This document shows positions 58,106 to 59,882 of a stretch of DNA of 64,000 nt, piece after piece. The notes beneath the pieces were generated by a model. The model searched no databases. It was not told the origin of the DNA and was given only the letters and a program-made list of their open reading frames with translations. Position 1 is the first letter of the stretch. Each line of letters begins with the position of its first letter. Source of the stretch: Rhodoluna sp. (GTDB lineage Bacteria; Actinomycetota; Actinomycetes; Actinomycetales; Microbacteriaceae); assembly GCA_024641985.1 (NCBI GenBank), contig JAHEBZ010000006.1, positions 1 through 64,000 on the forward strand, read 5' to 3'. Both the position numbers and the translations under genes were made by a program.

Positions 58106-58187
58106 GGCTAGTTACCCAAGCGGCCAAAGGGATCTGACTGTAAATCAGCCGGCTCAGCCTTCGGGGGTTCGAATCCCTCACTAGCCA
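58106..58187 (+). tRNA. tRNA-Tyr (GTA)
   Basis: GGCTAGTTACCCAAGCGGCCAAAGGGATCTGACTGTAAATCAG...GGTTCGAATCCCTCACTAGCCA, long variable arm. Confidence 0.96.
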
Positions 58188-58198
58188 CATACGGGAAG

Positions 58199-58238
58199 CC
58201 CCGCCAACACAGGCATGTAGCAGTGTTAGCGGGGTTTT
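58199..58238 (+). terminator. Intrinsic terminator after tRNA-Tyr
   Basis: CCCCGCCAACAC...GTGTTAGCGGGG then TTTT (one mismatch). Confidence 0.8.
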
Positions 58239-58396
58239 CTGGTACTCGGTGTGCATTTTTATGTGCTAGCGCGGAGATTGCTTGCCTTCCCGCGACAAAG
58301 GGTTGAGAGAAATAGTTGTCGCTAGGTGGAAAAGTCTCGCCTCTGAGTTAGCGTTATTCAACGCGTTCATAGTTGTGTAAATTGGGGGACATTGAA

Positions 58397-59794
58397 ATGA
58401 CTAAAAAGGCAGCACCCGAACCAGAAATCACGAACCTGGACTTCATGTTTGCCGATGAAGGTTCTTGGAACGGTTCCGACTACTCATATGACCCAGCTTT
58501 TTGGCACAGGTCCATGGCAGATGTAGAGGCAGTTCTAGACAGTGAGTTCGCGTATGAGGACCCTGCGCCTCAGGCTACTTTCGCTCCAGATTTCAACGCA
58601 GAATCTTGGAAGAAAACCGCGAACTTTGGCGAAATTTCGACTCATGTGTCAGATTGGGCTAAGTATCTATCGGACCCCGATGAACCTTTGTACCTGGAAA
58701 TTCCGTTCCCAGAGCACTTCCGCGAAAGTATTAGGAATCAGTTTCGAATCGATGCGGGCTTAGCCCTCATTCGCTCTTCAAGGTCAATGCGCGAGTATTT
58801 TCGGTACTGGTCTGCCTATCAAGCCGCTGTAGTGACCAACGCTTCGCTAGTAAGACCGAACAGTAATGCAAATTGGAATTATGGATGCTCAGGAATCTTG
58901 GGGCTCTTTATCCTGCTCTTCATAGTCACGGGAATCAAAAGTGACAATCTTGGAGGCGCAAGCTTCTTCGCAGTTCTTTTTGGTTTGGGTATTGTTTGGT
59001 TGATGAGAAGCGGAAGGCGGCGAGTAGAGTTGCGGCGTCAAGACTTCGAAGACCGTGTTCAGCGCGCCAACTCTGACTTAGCTAAGTCGCGCAAGAAGGT
59101 AATGGGGTTTCTTGAGCGCAACGGCTGGTACGCCCCTGCGCTTGATAAAGTCATCGCTGCTGCTGCTGAACTGGCAGAAAACTTCATCGAAGAACAAGAA
59201 GTTATTTTGGCAAAACGTAGAGACGCCAACAAGTTCATTGACGCTCCGCACTCGCCTAAACAAATCCAAGGACTTATGTCGGATGGTGCGACTAAGGCAG
59301 GTCCAAAAAAGATGGAACGCTTTAGTCCGCGAGACTATGAAATTTTCTGTGCTGGTTGGGTCGAATATTTAGGTGGCGAAAATGTGCGTGTAACGCAGCA
59401 AAGCGCAGACGGTGGGATAGACATCGTTTCCGACAACGAGGTTGCTCAGGTAAAGCTTCATGGCTCTCCAGTCTCAGTACAACCGATTCGCGAGTTGTTT
59501 GGAGTTTCTCAGTCGGTGTCTAAGACGCCTCTCTTCTTTACTTCAACTGGCTATACGCAGGCCGCGATTACATTCGCAGAGGCCAACGACGTTTTCCTCT
59601 TCATCGCAGACCCTGTGAACGAGGACCTAAAGGGTGTGACTGAAATTTCCCGAGCTCTCAAACGCACAGGTCTGACGTTAAATCGGGCTACGGATGATGT
59701 GCCGCTTGTTTTTGGGAATACTGAGGGCAACGCACATTCAGGAATAGATGGCTACGAAGATGGCCACGCTTCTGACGGTTACCTGAACAGATAG
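58397..59794 (+). CDS. Membrane-anchored Mrr-like restriction endonuclease domain protein
   Basis: Two adjacent TM segments mid-protein; C-terminal FSPRDYEIFCAGWVEYLGG...GGIDIVSDNEVAQVK (D...QxK nuclease signature). Confidence 0.8.
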   Translation: MTKKAAPEPEITNLDFMFADEGSWNGSDYSYDPAFWHRSMADVEAVLDSEFAYEDPAPQATFAPDFNAESWKKTANFGEISTHVSDWAKYLSDPDEPLYLEIPFPEHFRESIRNQFRIDAGLALIRSSRSMREYFRYWSAYQAAVVTNASLVRPNSNANWNYGCSGILGLFILLFIVTGIKSDNLGGASFFAVLFGLGIVWLMRSGRRRVELRRQDFEDRVQRANSDLAKSRKKVMGFLERNGWYAPALDKVIAAAAELAENFIEEQEVILAKRRDANKFIDAPHSPKQIQGLMSDGATKAGPKKMERFSPRDYEIFCAGWVEYLGGENVRVTQQSADGGIDIVSDNEVAQVKLHGSPVSVQPIRELFGVSQSVSKTPLFFTSTGYTQAAITFAEANDVFLFIADPVNEDLKGVTEISRALKRTGLTLNRATDDVPLVFGNTEGNAHSGIDGYEDGHASDGYLNR

Positions 59795-59882
59795 TTTTGG
59801 GTCAATCTGGTGGCAAGGCCTACCTCATCGCTCAAGCGCATTCTAAAAGCGATGAGGCGCCTTTGCCCCCTAACTCCATCGA

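Follow-up and report, generated by a model that had tools for sequence, protein, structure and literature searches.

Membrane-associated defence and the Mrr nucleases

The closest functional precedent for the gene described here is SNIPE (PD-lambda-1), a nuclease bound to the membrane, which cuts phage DNA as it is injected and becomes toxic without its transmembrane (TM) segment (PMC13190303). Self-cleavage is prevented by membrane anchoring, which makes SNIPE a proven case of a nuclease restrained by its location, and its homologues share a conserved nuclease domain while their N-termini are diverse (PMC13190303). Zorya and Kiwa are also membrane-localised and act where phage DNA enters the cell (reviewed in PMC12904381). 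Our search of the open full-text literature yielded no account of a membrane-linked Mrr nuclease. The Mrr_cat domain is the catalytic domain of Escherichia coli Mrr, a type IV restriction enzyme.

The window analysed here is a stretch of 64,000 nucleotides from a Rhodoluna sp. contig of 75,023 bp, and it contains a gene for a predicted membrane-tethered nuclease of 465 residues (58397-59794, plus strand). In common with SNIPE (PMC13190303), this is a single gene whose product combines a TM anchor, a middle part and a C-terminal nuclease, and in both cases the N-terminus is variable. However, SNIPE carries GIY-YIG and DUF4041 domains, whereas the present protein is of the Mrr type and neither of the two domains was found in a Pfam scan; membership in SNIPE was therefore rejected. 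In addition, SNIPE usually has one TM segment in its first 70 residues and a periplasmic N-terminus, while here a hairpin (residues 162-203) follows an N-terminus of 158 residues. At most, the nuclease may work like SNIPE. It shares with E. coli Mrr the Mrr_cat domain with D...QxK, and differs from it in having a TM hairpin and no Mrr_N winged helix detectable in the Pfam scan. Zorya and Kiwa, in contrast, are multi-gene systems with a separate membrane sensor, none of which was found beside the nuclease.

Two further groups of proteins resemble the nuclease in part. The PADLOC model PDC-S02, a candidate single-gene defence system, matches the Mrr region (best E=7.5e-6), but the match spans residues 304-397 alone and 191-291 of 334 profile positions, leaving the N-terminal part unmatched, and membership was rejected. 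Several actinobacterial proteins annotated as 'restriction endonuclease' (WP_255181438.1, WP_148258213.1 and others) have the same succession of TM hairpin, linker and Mrr domain, with Mrr regions approximately 34-36% identical to that of the nuclease; their N-termini are unrelated to its own, and no functional description of them appears in the literature searched.

A predicted TM hairpin joined to an Mrr catalytic domain

The open reading frame is intact from the ATG at 58397 to the stop at 59794, and the spacing of 7 nt between GGGGGA (58384-58389, plus strand) and the ATG makes this motif a good ribosome-binding site. The sole Pfam match above cut-off over the whole protein is Mrr_cat (PF04471) at residues 307-402 (59315-59602, plus strand; E=9.1e-12, 45.6 bits against a curated cut-off of 21), as expected from the D...QxK Mrr domain proposed in the initial annotation. 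The domain contains E315 and an intact catalytic D342...Q351-x-K353, in agreement with the D...(E/Q)xK pattern of Mrr_cat. An absence of catalytic residues on alignment, which the initial annotation had named as evidence against its own reading, is not what the 18-row alignment of relatives reveals: D342 and K353 are the same in every row, as is the DGG motif, and Q351 is the usual residue. A Pfam match to the TacA1 antitoxin at residues 252-289 was rejected, being under the cut-off and within a helical stretch.

An AlphaFold2 model of the 465-residue protein, built from 12 input sequences with plasmid rows left out, has a mean pLDDT of 62, and its nuclease fold lies mostly above 90. The top PDB match of the model in Foldseek is 1y88 (E=1.5e-3, probability 1.00), and lower matches include splicing endonucleases and a Holliday junction resolvase, which have the restriction-endonuclease-like fold in common; PDB sequence searches with the nuclease gave no match. 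By its domain and conserved catalytic residues, the protein appears to be an Mrr-type (PD-(D/E)XK) nuclease that would cleave DNA.

The N-terminal region (residues 1-158; 58397-58870, plus strand) is acidic and unrecognised. Its pLDDT is mostly below 50, with residues 1-104 disordered or unpredicted at this level, and no Pfam family matches residues 1-250 above cut-off. A search with this region over 396 genomes of the order returned noise-level matches alone, the best of which (E=0.002) was to the linker helix. It is followed by two hydrophobic segments, at residues 162-180 (58880-58936, plus strand; KD 2.16) and 185-203 (58949-59005, plus strand; KD 2.04), which are parted by four residues (KSDN) and succeeded by RSGRRR on the predicted cytoplasmic side. 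As shuffling the nuclease sequence 300 times never gave an equally strong hydrophobic pair (threshold 1.8), the hairpin is not expected from composition. AlphaFold2 places helices at residues 160-181, 185-241 and 247-282, with the hairpin continuing into a long helix, and residues 204-282 (59006-59242, plus strand) form a long helical, coiled-coil-like linker between the hairpin and the Mrr domain. The two close TM helices, the coiled-coil stretch and the unrecognised N-terminus of about 150 residues that had been read from the sequence at the outset are all recovered by these analyses. Hydropathy and the model together point to what is apparently a membrane anchor, a TM hairpin N-terminal to the nuclease domain, and the positive-inside rule would place both termini in the cytoplasm. 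In that case the protein has no outside sensor, and we count this against the explanation favoured below.

The nuclease as cargo of an integrative element

The integration target is a tRNA-Tyr gene (gta; 58106-58188, plus strand; ARAGORN). An exact 23-bp repeat, GTTCGAATCCCTCACTAGCCACA, lies at its 3' end as attL (58167-58189, plus strand) and again as attR at contig position 72537-72559, beyond the window, and delimits an element of 14.4 kb. An integrase together with attL/attR direct repeats at the 3' end of a tRNA identifies it as a tRNA-site integrative element. The nuclease is the first gene within it, starting 208 bp past the tRNA, and its suspected place at the edge of a mobile element can now be given precisely as just inside attL. 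A terminator-like hairpin within the element (58196-58240, plus strand; fold z=-3.97) follows the tRNA and is shared with a sister element (aligned to L063). The nuclease and integrase genes converge, and the inverted repeat between them may be a terminator (59823-59858, no strand assigned; fold z=-2.95). Flanked by the tRNA and the integrase, the nuclease gene is on its own, with no sensor or protease gene as an operon partner.

Next in order are the tyrosine integrase (59883-61166, minus strand; Phage_integrase, E=3.6e-25), an excisionase-like HTH_17 protein (61108-61320, minus strand; E=1.2e-4, under the curated cut-off), a 175-residue ORF without assigned function that is likely part of the element backbone (61475-62002, plus strand), an NgoFVII-type restriction endonuclease with PLD and B3-like domains in Pfam (61999-63006, minus strand) and a C5-cytosine methyltransferase (63006-64000, minus strand), which in the contig sequence continues beyond the window end (L022:5507-6613). 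The remainder comprises a 433-residue protein, an SNF2 helicase, a NOV_C protein, a 187-residue ORF, an ATPase and a Prim-Pol; the ATPase has a weak Pfam match to an AAA lid alone and is called DUF3987-like from its look. GC3 is 0.494 for the nuclease and 0.473 and 0.498 for the restriction-modification genes of the element, and flanking chromosomal genes are higher, at 0.56-0.62.

Two neighbouring groups of genes were also observed. The 433-residue protein without a Pfam match, SNF2 (607 residues) and NOV_C (244 residues) are encoded in the same direction at contig 64211-68093 (L022:6712-10594), and this operon beside the restriction-modification pair is a possible uncharacterised defence operon. 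Past attR, at contig 72646-74751 (L022:15147-17252), are a HigB/HigA toxin-antitoxin pair and a secreted Excalibur-domain protein, possibly a tandem second insertion.

The same tRNA-Tyr carries a sister element in another genome of the genus (G693), with the same backbone: the integrase is 58% identical, the 175-residue ORF, which there lies between the integrase gene and the cargo, 74%, the DUF3987-like protein 84% and Prim-Pol 72%. In the slot that the nuclease occupies here, between attL and the integrase, this element encodes a secreted Excalibur-domain protein without an evident role in defence, which counts against the explanation favoured below; its second slot is taken by an HKD-SNF2 helicase and a type IIG restriction enzyme. 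As the backbone is kept and the slot contents differ, the nuclease is exchangeable cargo. In a further genome (G727), two att copies at tRNA-Tyr enclose a segment of 4.8 kb (L064:748-5597) that encodes a Drt4-like reverse transcriptase; this segment also encodes a helix-turn-helix-like protein, and no integrase was seen within it. The replication module has a third relative, in genome G730, where a different integrase lies near a tRNA-Arg; a DUF3800 assignment for the protein adjoining that integrase was dropped for want of a Pfam or PADLOC match. Tandem att copies at tRNA-Tyr occur in several genomes, and the site collects defence genes.

Distribution and neighbourhoods of relatives

Matches to the nuclease were identified in 20 of 300 genomes of the family, its own included, and all others are confined to about residues 256-449, with 24-42% identity. 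Mrr_cat is present in five of the 67 genomes of the genus, and only one other of these (G703, 38%, cut by the contig end) belongs to the same subfamily. Named relatives occur in Planctomonas, Cryobacterium, Mycetocola, Agromyces, Microbacterium, Leifsonia and others, and plasmid-borne ones in Cellulosimicrobium, Pseudarthrobacter, Curtobacterium, Rhodococcus and others. Whole-protein searches of genome contigs and viral contigs gave no match, nor did a phage tblastn with the nuclease, and an alignment-based viral scan yielded no confirmed relative. A strict TM pair is present in nine of 26 actinobacterial relatives versus none of nine non-actinobacterial ones. As about two-thirds of the relatives checked are without it, anchoring is not a common trait of the whole subfamily, which also weighs against the favoured explanation. 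The N-termini of 25 named relatives have no similarity to that of the nuclease, and among relatives with a TM hairpin and Mrr domain each has a different one. The N-terminal region was initially described as novel; about 400 genomes of the order indeed yielded no relative of it, but since N-termini vary throughout the subfamily, its novelty is less special than it seemed.

Other arrangements were noted as well. A Rhodococcus plasmid protein (L082:7929-8645) has the reversed order, with the Mrr domain first and the TM pair after it. A 639-residue protein of an Actinomycetota MAG (L105:4447-6363), encoded among housekeeping genes, combines several hydrophobic segments with an Mrr domain at its C-terminus, and the QQSADGG motif of that domain is identical to that of the nuclease.

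Five of the eight plasmid relatives examined have clear defence-type genes within 8 kb, a count made without a matched control, so that enrichment near defence genes is not established. These genes are a DNA methyltransferase, a Z1/PD-(D/E)XK/AIPR set, a type ISP restriction-modification system, an EcoRI-type methylase with multiubiquitin/ThiF, and BREX. In the regions of chromosomal relatives (104 ORFs) the neighbours are mostly housekeeping genes and PADLOC matches are sparse, although one relative lies near a type I restriction subunit and one with type I-E Cas genes; two further targeted inspections, of other relatives, again gave mostly non-defence neighbours. The defence context supposed at the start is therefore sustained by the restriction-modification genes in the element, by other defence genes at the same tRNA-Tyr in two sister genomes and by the plasmid relatives. 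The counter-observation it had named, that homologues are housekeeping and outside defence islands, gives a mixed picture, being largely true of the chromosomal relatives in other genera, with type I restriction-modification or CRISPR genes close to only some of them.

Possible function

The explanation that we favour, with about an even chance of being correct, is that a single cargo gene between attL and the integrase encodes a membrane-tethered Mrr-type defence nuclease that cuts incoming DNA; the initial annotation had suggested either such action or an abortive response. The two TM helices would form a tight hairpin with a four-residue loop, leaving both termini in the cytoplasm, and the long helical linker would keep the Mrr domain close to the inner face of the membrane. 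There the domain would cleave foreign DNA (of a phage, possibly of a plasmid or other element) upon entry, while anchoring would keep most of the chromosome out of the nuclease's reach. Specificity, or the binding of a partner, would probably reside in the variable N-terminus.

A regulatory role is instead conceivable for the N-terminus and the long helical linker, and NLR-like STAND systems of P4 satellites use Mrr_cat domains as effectors (PMC9122126), as would suit an abortive effector that is inert while tethered and upon infection is released or activated to degrade host DNA. The lack of a sensor or protease gene in an operon with the nuclease, and the membrane tether as an awkward place for a chromosome-degrading effector, make this role unlikely. 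The position beside an integrase, the contested nature of the tRNA-Tyr site with its tandem att copies, and the occurrence of relatives on plasmids would fit a nuclease that keeps out rival plasmids or integrative elements, and not phage, and so protects the site; yet the best precedent, SNIPE, does not block plasmid transformation (PMC13190303), and we regard such exclusion as improbable. Type IV-like restriction of modified DNA, with the membrane location incidental, is suggested by the Mrr_cat domain itself, but the Mrr_N winged-helix domain was not detected in the Pfam scan and an enzyme cutting 5mC would conflict with the element's own C5-cytosine methylase, which leaves this reading quite improbable. 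A housekeeping or element-maintenance nuclease (for example in repair or element processing) with no defence role is very improbable, for despite the many chromosomal relatives among housekeeping genes the distribution in the family and genus is patchy, and absence from the sister element means that the gene is not needed for mobility.

Beyond this locus, it is conceivable, although somewhat doubtful, that a family of Mrr-type nucleases exists in actinobacteria, each encoded by one gene, tethered to the membrane and fitted with an interchangeable N-terminus, and that these enzymes catch incoming DNA on the cytoplasmic side; the solution of SNIPE would then have been reached independently with a PD-(D/E)XK nuclease. 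The present protein would be a member whose N-terminus has been seen nowhere else so far, carried on a mobile element in a small-genome actinobacterium. If this is true, location, and not DNA sequence or modification, would be the rule by which self is told from non-self, and a second, unrelated nuclease fold would be using such a rule in Gram-positive actinobacteria. Because TM hairpin and Mrr domain recur together behind variable N-termini, the idea of a tethered nuclease is open to direct test. To our knowledge, genome injection across the actinobacterial envelope has been little studied, and tethered nucleases of this kind would provide a handle on it.
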